A DNA stretch of 36,195 bases from Tildeniella nuda ZEHNDER 1965/U140 (GTDB taxonomy: Bacteria; Cyanobacteriota; Cyanobacteriia; Leptolyngbyales; Leptolyngbyaceae), in NCBI GenBank assembly GCA_019358895.1, contig JAHHIG010000033.1, forward strand, positions 1-36,195. The letters run 5' to 3'. The notes beneath the pieces were generated by a model. That model worked only from the letters and a program-made list of their open reading frames with translations, searched no databases and was not told where the DNA came from. Made by a program: the position numbers and the translations under genes. Position 1 is the first letter of the stretch, and each line of letters starts with the position of its first letter. This document shows positions 14,596 to 22,551 of the stretch, piece by piece.

Positions 14596-15411
<816 letters not shown>

Positions 15412-15663: not shown

Positions 15664-15730
<67 letters not shown>

Positions 15731-15922
15731 CAGCCAAGGATTGAATCTGTAGCTACAGTTTAGGGAAATGGTATGAAAGCATTTCTAGAGACCGCTTTTA
15801 AGGCAAGGGGCTGCTCAGCGCTGTTTTTCTGTACGTGTTTTAGCTGCGTTTTCTGAGCGGCGATCGGTTGGATCGCTAAGCTCCCAAAGCCTGATTCGTC
15901 ACTCCCACCATTGATTCTCACT

Positions 15923-17716
15923 ATGTCAGACGTATTGACTCAGACTGTCAGCTATTCAGGACTCGATCGACTGCTGGATGGGCGCTATCAGGTCATCCAA
16001 ATACTGGCAACTGGCAACTGGGGACGAACCTACCTGGCGCAAGATACGCGTCGCCCAAGCCAACCAGAATGCGCGATTCAGCACGTTGTACCAGTTGCTC
16101 ATGCCCTTTCTGATCAGTCTGCGCTAAGGCAGCTCTTTGTGCGCGAGGCATCCACGCTAGAGCGGCTGGGAGAGCATGAGCAAATTCCCCAGCTTCTAGC
16201 TTGTTTTGAGGATGAACAGGGGTTTCATCTCGTGCAGGAGTTCGTTAGCGGTACGTCCTTGAGCCTGGAACTGATGCCGCAGCCCTGGGACGAAACGCGG
16301 GTTGTGCAATTGCTGGTGGACTGCTTGAAAATTCTGGCAGTAGTGCATGAAGAATGCTGTCGGCATGGTGATATCCAGCCAGATAATCTGATTCGACGAT
16401 CGCACGATGGCAAGCTCATGCTCACCAACTTTGGCACCGTGCGCGATATCCACCTGTCCCTGATGACACTACAAGGGCAGGCTGCTGCCTCAATGGTGCC
16501 CGATACACATGGCTATCAGCCTCCAGAACAGGTGCAGGGATTACCGTGCCTTGCCAGCGATATTTATGCGGTGGGTATGATCGGTATTCAAGCGCTGACG
16601 GGCGTTAAGCCCTTACAGTTGGGCTACGATACTCGCACCTGGGAGATCCTCTGGCAGCCGTTTGGTCAGACAGCAGGCTCAACGCTACGGCATGGGTTAG
16701 TTGCTGTGCTCAGCCGCATGGTTCGCACTGATCATACGCAACGCTATCCGTCTGCTAAAGAAGCACTACAAGCACTACAGCAGTTGACTCAGGCGGTACC
16801 GCATAAGTTGGTGGAGGAGACGATCGCGCCTGCCCTTACGCCTAACCTCTCCCCGCAGGAACCCTCTCAGGCACTAGCACTGCTCAACCTGCCGCACCAG
16901 GAAGCATCATCAGAACCGCGATTGAGTACAGCGGTGCAGATTGGTGTTGGCATTGGCGCTGTCGTGGCAGCAGCAGTCTGTGGCTATGCGCTACCCCATC
17001 TGCTCGATCGCACGCTCTTTGGCACAGGTGACCCCGATCAAAAAGCGTTGGCGGAAGCAACCCAGCAGTACCAGGCAGGACAACTTCAAAAAGCTGTATC
17101 TTTAGCAGAGACCATTCCCAAAGACAGCGCTGCCTATGCACCCGCACGGGAGGCGATCGCCCACTGGCAAACCGATTGGCAAACCGCCGAGCAAAAGTCT
17201 CAGGCAGCAAAAGCGGCATTCCAGCAAGGGAATGGTTTGGTCGTTTTACAACAGGCGCAGGGGCTGCCGCAAAATAGTTACTGGCAGGCGCAGGTGAAGC
17301 CTCTGGTGGAGCAGTCAATGAATCAGGCAGAAGCCGCTGCCGCTCAGCTATTGCGCGATGCCTATGGTCGAGCGATCGTCAAAGATTTTGCAGGCGCGAT
17401 CGTAGCGCTAAAACAGATTCCAGAAGGCACGTCTGTATATGCCAAAGCACAAGAAAAACTGCGCGAGTACAGTGAAAAACAGCAAGTTCAAGCGGTGAGC
17501 TATCTCCAGATTGCTTACGATCAAGCGGAAACGAAAGCGTTCGACAAAGCACTTGAGACACTCCAAAAAATTTCTGCCGATACGCCTACCCATGCCACCG
17601 CTCAGACAAAAACGCGTGAGTACACCGAAAAACAGCGCATTCGAGCCGAAGCTCTGGCACTCCAGGACTTGAACCCTGGCAGCTATCTGCAAGAAGCGAA
17701 TCTGGCGAGGCAGTAG
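15923..17716 (+). CDS. Membrane-anchored protein kinase-like protein, predicted pseudokinase
   Basis: A 597-residue protein with a cyanobacterial SpkB-like kinase fold (LLDGRYQVIQILATGNWGRTYLAQDTRRP at the start). Key residues are changed: the VAIK lysine is Gln53 (CAIQHV), the HRDxKxxN loop is His148-Gly-Asp150-Ile-Gln152-Pro-Asp-Asn155, and DFG is Asn169-Phe-Gly (LTNFGTV). Loss of the ATP lysine and the metal-binding Asp predicts little or no kinase activity. One membrane span follows at about 338-358, then a helical, TPR-like repeat region (AYxxAxxKLREYxEKQ) to the end. ATG 15923 is preferred to the TTG at 15911. A signalling or scaffold role is an inference. Confidence 0.85.
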   Translation: MSDVLTQTVSYSGLDRLLDGRYQVIQILATGNWGRTYLAQDTRRPSQPECAIQHVVPVAHALSDQSALRQLFVREASTLERLGEHEQIPQLLACFEDEQGFHLVQEFVSGTSLSLELMPQPWDETRVVQLLVDCLKILAVVHEECCRHGDIQPDNLIRRSHDGKLMLTNFGTVRDIHLSLMTLQGQAAASMVPDTHGYQPPEQVQGLPCLASDIYAVGMIGIQALTGVKPLQLGYDTRTWEILWQPFGQTAGSTLRHGLVAVLSRMVRTDHTQRYPSAKEALQALQQLTQAVPHKLVEETIAPALTPNLSPQEPSQALALLNLPHQEASSEPRLSTAVQIGVGIGAVVAAAVCGYALPHLLDRTLFGTGDPDQKALAEATQQYQAGQLQKAVSLAETIPKDSAAYAPAREAIAHWQTDWQTAEQKSQAAKAAFQQGNGLVVLQQAQGLPQNSYWQAQVKPLVEQSMNQAEAAAAQLLRDAYGRAIVKDFAGAIVALKQIPEGTSVYAKAQEKLREYSEKQQVQAVSYLQIAYDQAETKAFDKALETLQKISADTPTHATAQTKTREYTEKQRIRAEALALQDLNPGSYLQEANLARQ

Positions 17717-17842
17717 GAGAGGGGCAGAGGGGGCAGAGGAAGCAGGGGAGGCAGAGGAAGCAGGGGAGGCAGGGGAGGCAGAGGAAGCAATTCAATACTT
17801 AATACGACTCCCCACTCCCGACTCCCGACTCCCCACTCCCCA
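17717..17842. repeat. Purine-rich and heptamer repeats after the pseudokinase gene
   Basis: The stretch 17717-17790 repeats GAGGCAGAGGAAGCAGGG with variants. It is followed at 17809-17842 by ACTCCCG/ACTCCCC heptamers, the reverse complement of the thiL and 11077 arrays. Related pyrimidine-rich copies are seen at about 29878-29930. Confidence 0.75.
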
Positions 17843-17937
17843 TTTATGTACTCATATACGCCTCTGGACCTGTCTACTTGCTATGATGCGTCGTGATCGC
17901 GTTTGTCTCAACGAGTCGTCTACTATCGGAGCAGCTT

Positions 17938-19854
17938 ATGGGATTCCATGTTTCTCCTACCGAGCAGCAGGGGCACTACCGCTACGATCCCACCGCGCTT
18001 GGTGAGCGTGGTCCGGCTCGTCTTTTTCCCCATGCTGGCGAAGATGGGGTTTTGCGCTATGTGTTGAGCCAACGTCGTCACAATTTGCTGGCTCAGGGGC
18101 AGATATCGGAACCCTGGAGTTTGCTGCTCCGCGAATTGGAGCAGATGAGCCAAACACTTGATCAGGGTTGGGCACAGGTTGCAACACTGCTGGTCGATTT
18201 CAAAATCCTGCAATCTGGTTGGTTTAATGTCAATTTGCCGCCCAACGAGCAGTTTGATACTGAGTTTGTGCAAGAACGACGGGCAATGACAGCCGTGCTG
18301 CTGGCAGCGAAAACGACGGCTAAGTTACATACCAATACCGACGTTCGCCGATCGCGTTTCTATCAAGTACTGGAAGATTTGGGGCGCACTCACCCTGTAG
18401 TCAGCCCCATTCATGAGCGCCACAATGGGCTAAGCGATCGTGAGTTTGCGCGTCAGCGATTGGCAGGGCAGAATCCGATGGCGCTGCGACAATTTCAACA
18501 GGCAGATCAAGCGTTATTACAAACGTGGGCAGATCAGGTAAACGCAAATGGCGACTCAGTTGATCTGGTTCAGGCAGCCGCAGAAAACCGTCTTTTCGTA
18601 GCGGCTTACCCCCTTTTGGAGCAGCTTACCTCGGCTGATTTGCAAAGCGGTCGCTATGTAGGAAGCCCGATCGCGCTCTTTTACCGTGCAGCAACGGGAC
18701 TGGAGCCAGTGCTGATTCAGGTAGAACCAGGGCGACTGGCAACGCCAACGCAAATAGATACTGATCGCTGGATGCAGGCAAAGCTATTTGTGCAGACGGC
18801 AGATGTCACCTATCACGAACTGATTGTGCATCTATGCGACACACACCTGGCAATGGAGGCATTTGCGATCGCTACCCCCCGCCAACTCCCCAAGACGCAT
18901 CCGGTGTATCGCCTGCTACGCCCTCATTTTCGCTTCTTGCTGGCAATTAACACGCGCGGTAATACGATTCTGTTGGGTGAAGGGGCGGCGATCGATAAGC
19001 TGATGGCTCCCACTCGTGCTGCCTCGCTGGGGCTGATCAATCAAGCCTATCGAGAGCGATCGTTCCAGGACTACGCGCTACCCACTGTCATTACTCAGCG
19101 CGGCATTACATCCGATGTGCTGCCAGAGTTTCCCTACCGTGACGATGCGTTGTTGCTCTGGGAGGCGATCGCGCGCTATGTTACCCGCTATCTGCAACGC
19201 TACTACCCAGACGATCAAGCAGTCCAGCAAGACCCTTACTTGCAAGCCTGGGCTGCCGAATTGGGTGCTCCATTGGACTCTCGCCCGTCAACTGAGTTTC
19301 CGCAAGCCCCCACCTGGCTACCATCAGAATGGCTCCAGCAAACCAGGCTCAACCCTGATCCACTGCCAACCTACCCGCGTGTGCCCGATTTCCCACCCGC
19401 GATCGGGGCAGACTCTCAAGTGGGTTCAGTGACTGGCTTGCAGCAGCTCATCGACATTGCGACTCAAGTGATTTTTACCTGTGGACCACAGCACGCGGCA
19501 GTTAACTTTAGCCAGTTTGACTATGTTGGCTATGCACCCAATGCACCGCTGGCGCTCTACGATCGCCCCGATACCGCTACCTCTTTCCGGCAACTGCTAC
19601 CAGCCGCCGACCAGGACTTAGCCCAAATGGAGCTGGCATTCGCGCTGAGCGGCATTCGCTGGGGTGTGCTGGGCAGTTCGGAGTTGATGCAGTTTGTGGA
19701 TGCAGGCGATCGCCAAACACTGGCACAGTTCCAGGCTGATTTAGCTGCGATCGAACTTAAAATTAACGCTCGAAATCAACAGCGACTTGCCGATAGCGGA
19801 GTAGAGTACCCGTATTTGCTGCCGTCACGAATTCCGAACAGTATCAATATTTAG
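17938..19854 (+). CDS. Lipoxygenase
   Basis: This is a bacterial lipoxygenase that adds O2 to polyunsaturated fatty acids. It has 638 residues and only the catalytic helical domain; the N-terminal PLAT domain of plant enzymes is missing. All metal ligands are visible: His293 and His298 (YHELIVHLCDTH), His519 with Asn523 (QHAAVNF), and the C-terminal Ile638 (PNSINI). The conserved IATPRQLPKTHPVYRLLRPHFRF segment follows the first pair. ATG 17938 is chosen over a GTG 45 bases upstream because GGAG sits seven bases before it. Regiospecificity cannot be read from the sequence. Confidence 0.95.
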   Translation: MGFHVSPTEQQGHYRYDPTALGERGPARLFPHAGEDGVLRYVLSQRRHNLLAQGQISEPWSLLLRELEQMSQTLDQGWAQVATLLVDFKILQSGWFNVNLPPNEQFDTEFVQERRAMTAVLLAAKTTAKLHTNTDVRRSRFYQVLEDLGRTHPVVSPIHERHNGLSDREFARQRLAGQNPMALRQFQQADQALLQTWADQVNANGDSVDLVQAAAENRLFVAAYPLLEQLTSADLQSGRYVGSPIALFYRAATGLEPVLIQVEPGRLATPTQIDTDRWMQAKLFVQTADVTYHELIVHLCDTHLAMEAFAIATPRQLPKTHPVYRLLRPHFRFLLAINTRGNTILLGEGAAIDKLMAPTRAASLGLINQAYRERSFQDYALPTVITQRGITSDVLPEFPYRDDALLLWEAIARYVTRYLQRYYPDDQAVQQDPYLQAWAAELGAPLDSRPSTEFPQAPTWLPSEWLQQTRLNPDPLPTYPRVPDFPPAIGADSQVGSVTGLQQLIDIATQVIFTCGPQHAAVNFSQFDYVGYAPNAPLALYDRPDTATSFRQLLPAADQDLAQMELAFALSGIRWGVLGSSELMQFVDAGDRQTLAQFQADLAAIELKINARNQQRLADSGVEYPYLLPSRIPNSINI

Positions 19855-20054: not shown

Positions 20055-21143
20055 ATGCACGTTTACCGATCGACTATTTCCATTTTGACGGCAGTTGCGA
20101 TCGCGACTGTGACCGCTCCTGGCTATGCGCTGCCGCTGTCTCCGGGCGATCGGGTGCGAGTGCTTACACCGATGGATGACGAATTGCCGCCCGATAGCCG
20201 CTTTCGGTTGAGCGGACTGTATGAAGTGAACCTTGATGGAACATTGCAAATCCCGTTTCTGGAACCACAGCCTGCGGTTGGTTTAGAAGTGGCTGAGGTG
20301 CAGAAAAAGATAGCGGAAGCGTTAGTTAGCAAGGGCTTTTTTCGCCCAGAGTCACTGGAGTTGAGTGTCAATGTGGTGTCCTGGGCACCTGTGCAGGTGA
20401 CGGTTGCAGGAGAAACGTTTCGTCCAGGACGCGTGTTGATTAATGTGGTAACAGAGACTCGATCGGTGCCCAGTGGACAACCATCGCTCACAGCAGACGT
20501 AGTGACTGGCAGCTACCCGCCCGATCGCTACCTGAGTACTGCTATTCGTAGTGCTGGTGGCTTAAAGCCTGCTGCCGATCTACAACACATTCGTCTGCTT
20601 CGTGGCAAGCAAGAAAAAACATTCGACCTGTCTGGTGTACTCACGGGTAAAGCGGTGCCGGATGTCCCGCTGATTGCAGGCGATCAGGTTACGGTGCCAG
20701 CGTTGTCCTACAGCCAAAACGCACTGGTGCGTCCATCTCAGCTTACGCCGACGGATGTTACTGTGTTTTTGTCTAACCAGACGGCTCCAAATGCGCCCAA
20801 CATCAGCAAAGGTGGGCAGATTGTCACGTTCGCGTACGGTACTCGCTTCTCTCAGGCAGTGATTGCGGCAGGATGTGCGGGTGGTACTCAGCGCACGAAT
20901 GCTAGACGGCGTGCGGTGCTGGTGCAAACCGATCGCCTGACGGGCAAAACCACAGCGGTAGAACGCCCAGTCGAGCGCTTGCTCAAACAATCTGACAACG
21001 ATGCTGAAAATCCGTTCCTGATGCCGCAAGATGGGGTAGTTTGCTACGATTCAAAGGTGACGAATCTCGCCAGCATCTTCCGCCTGATCACCGATATTGC
21101 CAGTCCGTTCTTCTTAATCAACAGGTTGTTTCGGGATGAATGA
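20055..21143 (+). CDS. Polysaccharide export protein (OPX / Wza family)
   Basis: A 362-residue secreted protein with a Sec signal (MHVYRSTISILTAVAIATVTAPGYA) and no lipobox cysteine. The polysaccharide export domain begins at LPLSPGDRVRV and includes YEVNLDGTLQIPFL. Soluble ligand-binding beta-grasp (SLBB) segments follow (STAIRSAGGLKPAADLQHIRL, FSQAVIAAGCAGG). ATG 20055 is used because the signal peptide starts there; the upstream open frame is only translated repeat. It overlaps the next gene by eight bases. OPX proteins form the outer-membrane or periplasmic channel for exopolysaccharide. Confidence 0.9.
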   Translation: MHVYRSTISILTAVAIATVTAPGYALPLSPGDRVRVLTPMDDELPPDSRFRLSGLYEVNLDGTLQIPFLEPQPAVGLEVAEVQKKIAEALVSKGFFRPESLELSVNVVSWAPVQVTVAGETFRPGRVLINVVTETRSVPSGQPSLTADVVTGSYPPDRYLSTAIRSAGGLKPAADLQHIRLLRGKQEKTFDLSGVLTGKAVPDVPLIAGDQVTVPALSYSQNALVRPSQLTPTDVTVFLSNQTAPNAPNISKGGQIVTFAYGTRFSQAVIAAGCAGGTQRTNARRRAVLVQTDRLTGKTTAVERPVERLLKQSDNDAENPFLMPQDGVVCYDSKVTNLASIFRLITDIASPFFLINRLFRDE

Positions 21144-22551
21144 GTTTCCTCAACTTTCCCAGTCTGCATCGTTATCAACAGCAGACCGGGGACGCGGACT
21201 GCGGTATCTGGCTCTAGCGGCAGCGCTCAATGCTGCCGTATGGGGTTTAGCACTTTACTTGCTCAAAGATTCGCCACGCCTGTACACGAGCCTCTACTCG
21301 ATTATTCTGCCAGAACAGATTAGTCGCCCAAAGGGGACTCCACCCGAACCGACCATCAAAACCGAGCAGCCAGATGTACCGATCGATCCGTCTCGTGAAG
21401 GTGTGAAAGCCAGCTATAAGCTGATTGCAGCCACTGATGAGGTGCGTCGATCGGCAGCGGCTAAGCTCGGCATGACGACCTCGCAGTTTGGTGTGCCTTC
21501 AGTAGAAGGGTTGAAAGGCACCGCTTTGATGAATTTTGGCATTGCTGGATCAACGCCTGAAGAAGCGCAGAAAAAGGCACAGGCATTGTATGAAGCCTTC
21601 CAGGAGCGCTTGACCCAATTGCGGTTGCAGCAGTCAGCCGATGTGGATACAGGCTTTGAAACCTCGCTGGGTGTCGTGCGTAAGAAGCTGGAAACGGCTC
21701 AGCTTCGCCTTTCCGATTACAAAGTTCGCTCTGGTCTGGCTTCTAACGAGCAGATTGATCAGCTTGCCAACAATATTGAGGCGCTCCGGCGGCAACGGGT
21801 AGAAGCGATCGCTCAGCAGCGCGATGCCACCGTGCGAACACAGCAGCTATCGGGCAATCTGAAGCTCTCTTCCCAACTAGCAACGGAAGCGTTTGCGCTG
21901 CGTGCCGACCCTCTGTTTCAAGAATATTTGCGCGGTTACAGCGAGGCAACGGCTAAATTAGCGGATGTGTCGTCTAAGTTTGGTCCCAATCACCCGATCG
22001 TGTTGCAGGCAACGACCCGACAAGCAACGACCGAAAGTGCCCTCCAAAGCCGTGGGCAGCAGCTTCTAGGGCATCCAACTGATTTAGCCACGATCGCCCG
22101 TCTCAACACAGGCAGTAACACTCAAGCCAGCAACCCACGCGAAAGTCTCTTCAAGGATATCGTGACCAACGAAGTCGAGCAGCGAGGCTTGACGGCACGT
22201 GTGCAGGAACTCGATCGCCAGATGGCGCAACTGGAACTACGACTCAGCGTTTTATCGCAGCGTAGCTCTACGCTAGAAGCACTCAACCGAGACGTACAAA
22301 TCGCTCAAGCCGTTTTTTCGTCCACGTTGGCGGGGCTACAGGTAGATAAAGGCGACATCTTCGGTTCGTATCCACCGATCCAGCTTGTTGCTGAACCGAA
22401 TCTGCCGACGGCTGCTACCATTCCACGCCGTGAGCCGTTGTTTATTTTGGCGACGATCGTTTCACTGCTGATTATTGCGGGAGTGCTTGCTGCGTGGCTG
22501 CGTAAAACATCGTTTGCGAAATGGCGTTGGGCGATCGGGGGTAAACAGTAG
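21136..22551 (+). CDS. Wzz/GumC-type polysaccharide co-polymerase
   Basis: A 471-residue inner-membrane protein with a transmembrane helix near residues 25-45 and another near 435-455. The long periplasmic part between them is rich in coiled coil (for example VRKKLETAQLRLSDYKVRSG and the EVEQRGLTARVQELDRQMAQL region). FGPNHPIVLQA is a family-typical segment. It lacks the C-terminal tyrosine kinase domain of fused PCP-2a proteins, ending soon after the second helix. It is coupled to the OPX gene by overlap (ATGAATGA), so the two probably form the export envelope complex. No glycosyltransferase cluster is adjacent. Confidence 0.9.
   Translation: MNEFPQLSQSASLSTADRGRGLRYLALAAALNAAVWGLALYLLKDSPRLYTSLYSIILPEQISRPKGTPPEPTIKTEQPDVPIDPSREGVKASYKLIAATDEVRRSAAAKLGMTTSQFGVPSVEGLKGTALMNFGIAGSTPEEAQKKAQALYEAFQERLTQLRLQQSADVDTGFETSLGVVRKKLETAQLRLSDYKVRSGLASNEQIDQLANNIEALRRQRVEAIAQQRDATVRTQQLSGNLKLSSQLATEAFALRADPLFQEYLRGYSEATAKLADVSSKFGPNHPIVLQATTRQATTESALQSRGQQLLGHPTDLATIARLNTGSNTQASNPRESLFKDIVTNEVEQRGLTARVQELDRQMAQLELRLSVLSQRSSTLEALNRDVQIAQAVFSSTLAGLQVDKGDIFGSYPPIQLVAEPNLPTAATIPRREPLFILATIVSLLIIAGVLAAWLRKTSFAKWRWAIGGKQ

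Follow-up and report, generated by a model that had tools for sequence, protein, structure and literature searches.

The window (the whole stretch of Tildeniella nuda DNA that we analyzed, 36,195 nucleotides) encodes a kinase-like protein whose catalytic site has lost several of its key residues. We think it fairly likely that this protein is a functional membrane-anchored pseudokinase that descended from an active receptor-type kinase. Most simply, a single conversion from active kinase to pseudokinase came before the spread of one clade of Leptolyngbyaceae. Pseudokinases as such are already known; what the alignments suggest here is that a receptor-type kinase was converted across a whole clade, while relatives elsewhere still look active.

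According to a review of bacterial pseudokinases, most of the families have yet to be assigned a function (PMC12599244). Active-looking relatives with the same architecture are therefore welcome. Here, one design has an intact site in the Nostocales (some of which are cultured) and a lost site in the Leptolyngbyaceae clade, and this offers a direct test of a receptor kinase without catalysis.

An intact gene with a degraded catalytic site

As the preliminary description of this locus stated, the gene is intact at about 597 codons: the 597-residue translation of positions 15923-17716 (forward strand) has no internal stop (Table 1). By its curated Pfam match (PF00069, 74.8 bits for residues 22-283; the cut-off is 31.7) and its bilobal fold, the N-terminal part is a Hanks-type kinase domain. 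An AlphaFold2 model made from 25 sequences (mean pLDDT 76.6, pTM 0.49) contains the bilobal domain, a stretch with pLDDT below 50 at residues 293-368, a helix at 345-364, and the tail. The kinase part of the model aligns with the PknA chain 4x3f_B over 251 residues (Z 27.4, rmsd 2.4), and the nearest solved folds are PknA and PknB-type chains. Among solved sequences, StkP is the closest to this protein, followed by PknA.

Table 1. Positions in the window of the features described in the text.
Feature	Position	Strand	Evidence
minC, divergent neighbor	14596..15393	-	PF03775; synteny
Pseudokinase gene, 597 codons + TAG	15923..17716	+	ORF translation, intact
Hanks-type kinase domain, residues 22-283	15986..16771	+	PF00069 74.8 bits; PknA fold match
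Glycine-rich loop LATGNWGRTY, partly degraded (first Gly lost, Phe to Trp33)	16004..16033	+	
Gln53 in place of the beta3 (VAIK) Lys	16079..16081	+	No Lys in 18/18 orthologues
Alpha-C Glu75, kept	16145..16147	+	17/18 orthologues
Catalytic loop HGDIQPDN (148-155): HRD Arg to Gly, Asp150 kept, Lys152 to Gln	16364..16387	+	
NFG in place of DFG (Asn169)	16427..16435	+	
Predicted helix in the activation segment, residues 172-183	16436..16471	+	Model, low confidence (block pLDDT 55-60)
APE-motif Glu202, kept	16526..16528	+	18/18 orthologues
Linker, predicted disordered, residues about 293-339	16799..16939	+	pLDDT <50
Predicted transmembrane helix, residues about 340-362	16940..17008	+	Hydropathy; modeled helix 345-364
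Helical-repeat tail, residues 371-580, alternating long and short helices	17033..17662	+	Model; PF25058; Nostocales-group homology
Conserved C-terminal motif LNPGSYLQE	17669..17695	+	16/18 orthologues; sole match to LNPGxxL[QR]E in the genome
Lipoxygenase gene, next downstream	17893..19854	+	PF00305 189.8 bits; synteny

By sequence, a kinase domain is considered a pseudokinase if it has lost at least one of the VAIK lysine, the HRD aspartate, and the DFG aspartate. The window protein lacks the VAIK lysine and the DFG aspartate, and it retains the HRD aspartate. Gln53, Glu75, HGDIQPDN, and Asn169 are all where the preliminary description placed them (by the translation and our residue table), and one change was absent from it: the arginine of HRD is a glycine. 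The glycine-rich loop had been described as remaining, which is true for two of the three glycines of LATGNWG; the first glycine is lost, and the phenylalanine has become a tryptophan. Altogether, Asp150, Asn155, Glu75, Glu202, Asp213, and Arg274 are retained. We infer from these residues that normal phosphate transfer would not be possible, and the protein probably has a non-catalytic role in binding or signaling. (The helix that the model places, at low confidence, in the activation segment is missing from the model of an active-looking Nostoc orthologue.)

The membrane anchor and the TPR-like tail that had been proposed both hold up as predictions. Hydropathy peaks at 1.93 over residues 340-358, and the modeled helix in this region falls mostly within the stretch with pLDDT below 50. 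If searched alone, the tail matches the TPR-type repeat model PF25058 (ARM_TT21) with 31.1 bits, as compared to a cut-off of 27, and by this curated match it is a TPR-type repeat; in the whole-protein search, the same model scores 24.4 bits, which is under the cut-off. The best match of the tail to a solved sequence has an E value of 0.49. Fold searches with the model, which cover the kinase part, listed kinases only. Searching the window's genome for the C-terminal motif LNPGxxL[QR]E finds LNPGSYLQE itself and no other match (the control had 0). SpkB has C-terminal pentapeptide repeats, and the label "SpkB-like" finds no support: Pfam matched neither pentapeptide repeats nor another extra domain in the window protein.

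We propose that the kinase-like N-terminal domain would lie in the cytosol and the tail across the membrane, with the predicted transmembrane helix as the anchor. The tail would bind a partner or a signal, and the pseudokinase domain would serve a cytosolic partner, such as an active kinase or envelope machinery, as a docking or allosteric module. This architecture suggests that the two sides may be coupled across the membrane.

A scan for promoters and terminators gave 4 promoter-like matches (1.3 expected) and 1 terminator-like match (2.8 expected), and we draw no conclusion from these counts. Short repeats flank the gene, with gaccgct units upstream (about 15695-15731) and ggcagagg or gcagggga units downstream (17717-17790).

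The genome has 34 matches to PF00069. Among the aligned rows of 28 of its own loci, a degraded site is also present in at least three others: L055 (with VVLQT and GFD), L056 (HRNLSLDT and NFG), and L059 (LVLRS and GFL). Therefore, pseudokinase-like proteins are not rare in this genome. At another locus, L049, only the beta3 lysine is changed, to arginine. (L055, L056, L059, and L049 are on contigs C30, C15, C11, and C34.) A second, active full-length copy of the window protein was not found in this genome: after the window protein, the full-length profile scores best on an ordinary kinase, with 382 bits.

Orthologues in the Leptolyngbyaceae and active-looking relatives

An orthologue is present in 18 of the 42 genomes of Tildeniella nuda's family and absent from the other 24. 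The gap in scores is wide (at least 590 bits in the carriers and at most 359 bits in the rest). None of the 18 orthologues has an internal stop; the one from G004 has a shortened tail (548 amino acids). The carriers include Stenomitos rutilans HA7619-LM2 (L061) and Pantanalinema sp. GBBB05 (L099), both of which are Leptolyngbyaceae in the NCBI taxonomy.

The beta3 lysine is found in none of the 18 orthologues and in all 59 of the remaining rows of the residue table. Residue 53 is instead glutamine (10 rows), histidine (5), tyrosine (2), or threonine (1). Residue 150 is aspartate in the 7 members of the genus and asparagine in the other 11. At residue 169, we found asparagine (9), aspartate (6), glycine (2), or serine (1), and the two catalytic aspartates never occur together, so each orthologue has lost at least two of the VAIK lysine, the HRD aspartate, and the DFG aspartate. 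Residue 152 is lysine (7), arginine (6), threonine (3), or glutamine (2). The arginine of HRD is a glycine in every row of the clade. The APE glutamate, the alpha-F aspartate, and Arg274 are each kept in 18/18. Trp33 is present in 17 of the 18, where the Nostocales group has phenylalanine in all 59 of its distinct rows. The preliminary description asked if Gln53, Gln152, and Asn169 are fixed. Within the genus, Asn169 is (7/7), Gln53 mostly is (6/7, with tyrosine in L010), and Gln152 is not, as it is found only in the window protein and the six congeners have arginine. Because the losses are common to all 18 orthologues, chance or a single damaged copy can be ruled out as the explanation. We also considered a patch in the N-lobe (Arg44/Gln47) that seemed specific to the clade as compared to the Nostocales group, and dropped it: other active-looking kinases have RRP or RP in the same loop.

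The 18 orthologues without the beta3 lysine are monophyletic with 100/100 support in a tree from which the diagnostic columns were excluded, and this was another of the checks that had been suggested. On the tree of 77 rows, the state of the lysine changes once. The stem of the clade is long (0.52-0.58), and so are the terminal branches of two of its members (L029 and L017).

We then searched 388 genomes of the class, each at least 85% complete. Full-length matches occur in the Nostocales and a few other groups. Outside the family, 29 genomes have a full-length match of at least 489 bits: 24 of these are in f32, which we take to be the Nostocales because its proteins resemble named Nostocales ones, and there is one each in f38, f41, f43, f44, and f45. 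In 28 of the 29, Lys53 and Asp150 are both kept; Asn169, Gln152, and DYG each occur in one of these 28. The relative in f45 (genome G378) keeps the lysine but has HTHLQPQN and TDFS. The lysine is also kept in Anabaenopsis elenkinii and an uncultured Nodularia (L096 and L100), which have HCH for HCD and otherwise look active; in a relative from Symploca SIO2C1, with HGAIQPDN and TDFS; and in a relative from an Oscillatoriaceae MAG, with HGNITPET and no alpha-C glutamate. A few other branches appear to have lost single motifs.

The relatives from the Nostocales (such as L069 from Nostoc foliaceum FACHB-393), Kastovskya, and Spirulina have their parts in the same order as the window protein, with a homologous tail, an equally placed hydrophobic segment, and a related C-terminal motif. 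Unlike the window protein, they keep the beta3 lysine, HCD or HGD, and DFG or DYG. (At the position of the HRD arginine, the Nostocales group has cysteine and the window protein has glycine.) Over 238 columns, the clade's tail is homologous to that of the Nostocales group (probability 100, E = 2.3e-57). Four other active-looking kinases (group act2) have tails that are not homologous to the clade's (probability 2), and matches to two further groups span only about 100 columns. LNPGxxL[QR]E is present in 16 of the 18 clade rows, 6 of the 9 rows from smaller groups, and 0 of the 60 rows of the Nostocales group, 44 of which end in a shorter related motif such as LQEVN. The hydrophobic segment C-terminal of the kinase domain is weaker in the Nostocales group than in the clade: its peak is at least 1.6 in 15/18 clade rows but in 9/60 rows of the Nostocales group (and at least 1.4 in 31/60).

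Free trees of the kinase domain do not place the clade as the sister of its active-looking relatives. However, the AU test does not reject a single group of the clade and these relatives (p = 0.43; 33 rows versus 19).

A broader reading, which we hold only tentatively, is that phosphotransfer is secondary in this family of receptor kinases, and that the architecture, the tail, and the C-terminal motif carry a binding or signaling role that does not need catalysis. On this view, several branches would have shed catalytic residues: the Leptolyngbyaceae clade thoroughly, and Anabaenopsis/Nodularia, Symploca SIO2C1, G378, and the Oscillatoriaceae MAG partially.

Selection on the domain and other explanations for the lost site

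We picked six catalytic columns and seven fold columns from textbook knowledge and compared their entropy to that of random sets of columns. Across the clade, the catalytic columns have a mean entropy of 1.43 bits, and 7,258 of 10,000 random sets are equally or more conserved. In the Nostocales group (59 distinct rows; 1 of the 60 was removed as identical), the mean is 0.08 bits, and just 17 of 10,000 random sets are equally or more conserved. The fold columns have entropies of 0.04 in the clade and 0.00 in the Nostocales group, and no random set out of 10,000 reaches this in either.

For the kinase domain, dN/dS within the genus (NG86) is 0.039-0.114 in 20 of 21 pairs, with the other pair saturated, and 0.10-0.11 in the five pairs whose dS does not exceed about 1. 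With YN00, it is 0.08-0.21 in 19 of 21 pairs. For the domains of active-looking paralogues (two sets from the same seven genomes), NG86 gives 0.014-0.057 in 32 of 42 pairs, with 10 saturated. Selection on the domain is strong, yet roughly 2-4 times weaker than on the active-looking paralogues. Constraint on the tail is looser: dN/dS is 0.08-0.25 by NG86 (16 of 21 pairs, with 5 saturated) and 0.29-0.69 by YN00 (20 of 21 pairs), so that the values depend on the method. For all of these estimates, many pairs are near synonymous saturation, and the Biopython module is marked as experimental.

The purifying selection that the preliminary description predicted is thus seen, with a dN/dS of about 0.1 for the domain in the genus. 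The result that would have counted against it, namely close orthologues with the lysine and the aspartate together with relaxed selection, is at most half present: orthologues with both residues exist in other families, and selection is weaker yet far from neutral. Selection for a non-catalytic role, as it proposed, is supported at the sequence level.

Could the protein still catalyze a reaction, if a weak or unusual one? A basic residue elsewhere might replace the lysine, or there might be another kind of transfer, as in SelO. Asp150 and Asn155 are kept throughout the genus (7/7), and Glu75 is kept in 17/18 of the orthologues. WNK kinases have a substitute basic residue that stands in for the beta3 lysine, and we considered residue 35, directly after the glycine-rich loop, as such a substitute. 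It is arginine in 12 of the 18 clade rows; but it is glutamine in 4 and histidine in 2, and it varies even within the genus. Furthermore, no orthologue has both catalytic aspartates, and the catalytic columns drift like random ones. Another point in favor of an enzyme comes from SpkE (Slr1443) of Synechocystis, which like the window protein is a Hanks-type protein that lacks catalytic residues. Its activity is disputed: SpkE was inactive in the first report (PMC2176072) and active in a later one, according to a 2025 review (PMC11863333). Overall, we give an unusual enzyme a rather low probability. SpkE is also a caution for our preferred reading, a functional pseudokinase; our confidence in that reading is slightly reduced by the weakness of the relatives' hydrophobic segment and by the arginine at residue 35.

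Less probable again, in our view, is that a kinase gene is decaying and has been retained for now by chance. The weaker selection relative to the paralogues' domains would fit with decay, as would the long end branches of L029 and L017 and the 24 family genomes without the gene, three of which are inside the carriers' group on the rpoB tree (described below). However, none of the 18 orthologues is interrupted by a stop, a dN/dS of about 0.1 is low, 16 of the 18 retain the C-terminal motif, and the fold columns are invariant while the catalytic columns are free.

Known pseudokinases and the gene's neighbors

The review of bacterial pseudokinases covers ActPs1-3, GLW, CP1, DYD, and DLHK, and EssB, SidJ, and SelO are discussed in it as well (PMC12599244). 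The comparisons that follow are to its descriptions of each family. CP1 pseudokinases are primarily from cyanobacteria and proteobacteria and resemble the clade in their variable loss of motifs, but they have no transmembrane region and a link to COG3899 (PMC12599244). The window protein has a predicted transmembrane helix and only the kinase and TPR-type Pfam matches, and so does not fit CP1. DYD pseudokinases have arginine for the beta3 lysine, lack the alpha-C glutamate, and have a DYD motif (PMC12599244); Gln53, the presence of Glu75, and NFG do not fit this. ActPs2/ActPs3 (MviN) and GLW pseudokinases resemble the window protein in having a transmembrane region on the C-terminal side (predicted, in our case), but they are mainly from other phyla and have lost other motifs: ActPs3 has a deletion in the activation loop, and GLW proteins have GLW for HRD (PMC12599244), where the window protein has HGD and so is not a member. 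For ActPs1-3 and DLHK, the comparison with the window protein is by their descriptions only.

EssB/YukC, from type VII secretion, is a membrane-anchored pseudokinase scaffold with degraded motifs (PMC12599244). The window protein is likewise degraded and, by prediction, anchored, but it differs in lineage, tail, and neighbors. No EssB/YukC family is found among its Pfam and NCBIfam matches up to E = 1 (these are sequence models). The PASTA kinases StkP and PknB have a comparable layout, with a kinase domain, a transmembrane helix, and a sensor on the far side, but they are active. Pfam finds no PASTA domain in the window protein, and NF033483 scores 68 bits against a cut-off of 450. Among models of anti-phage systems, the best from PADLOC is PD-T4-6 (up to 251.7 bits, with no cut-off given), which covers the kinase domain only, and the MAD6 model scores 113 bits against a cut-off of 460.

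Kinase-like proteins without a full site have been noticed in cyanobacteria before. A 2007 survey of cyanobacterial kinases retained 286, excluded 17 sequences in which important catalytic parts were missing, and reported five without the catalytic aspartate (PMC2176072). In the open-licence literature in PMC, we found no description of this Leptolyngbyaceae pseudokinase family, and nothing specific on the neighboring lipoxygenase.

Within the genus, the order at the locus is a divergent minC-minD, the pseudokinase, the lipoxygenase, and then a polysaccharide-export gene. This order holds in the window and in five of the six other genomes; in the sixth, the contig is 4.6 kb long. The lipoxygenase gene is 176 bases downstream of the pseudokinase gene on the same strand, and this is kept across the genus. 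(After the polysaccharide-export gene, positions 21136-22551 of the forward strand encode a genus-conserved protein of 471 amino acids with no Pfam match.)

Outside the genus there are 11 carriers, and we examined 10 of their loci (G032 was left out). None of these 10 has any other tested gene of the window near the orthologue. In six of them, from genomes of four genera, an HlyD-family gene is upstream on the same strand (adjacent in four, with one gene between in two), and each of the six has a homologue of an ABC exporter nearby. Within two ORFs downstream, 7 of the 10 have a helix-turn-helix (HTH) gene of the PF13551 type. (Pfam was run on one example each: the HlyD of L172, the HTH protein of L173, and the exporter of L174, which has a C39 peptidase domain.) In the Nostocales, the common neighbors are instead a DUF697 GTPase, a TPR kinase on the opposite strand, and a rhomboid gene (by Pfam on L069). 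Because the neighbors differ between groups, we do not name a partner.

The HTH gene is found in 17 of 18 carriers and 0 of 24 non-carriers. However, on a tree of rpoB from 40 of the 42 family genomes (the stretch used is missing from G007 and G059), the carriers fall in one group of 21, along with three non-carriers, none of which has the HTH gene, and the tree offers just 2 independent pairs for the contrast between carriers and non-carriers. The co-occurrence largely follows this group, and a functional link between the pseudokinase and the HTH gene is not established. Across the class, 81 of 388 genomes have members of the HTH family, several of them in many copies; in f32 it is in 3 genomes, weakly.

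Close homologues of the HlyD protein are found in 9 of 18 carriers and 0 of 24 non-carriers (at E < 1e-60, a limit that was set after seeing the list), and since the rpoB tree places the carriers almost entirely together, this is not independent evidence. The least probable of the explanations is that the protein belongs to an export apparatus, as a scaffold or regulator of the ABC exporter and HlyD in the way that EssB serves type VII secretion: the HlyD and exporter genes near the orthologue in 6/10 loci and the co-occurrence would fit, but a close HlyD homologue is missing from the window's genome (best E = 1.2e-14), its six congeners have none better than 1e-27, and the neighborhood there is different.

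Finally, a small gene of one family is near the pseudokinase gene in L174, L175, L178, L179, and L180, and in four of these it is beside the ABC-exporter gene. The one that we examined, at L174, is type IV pilin-like (PF16734).
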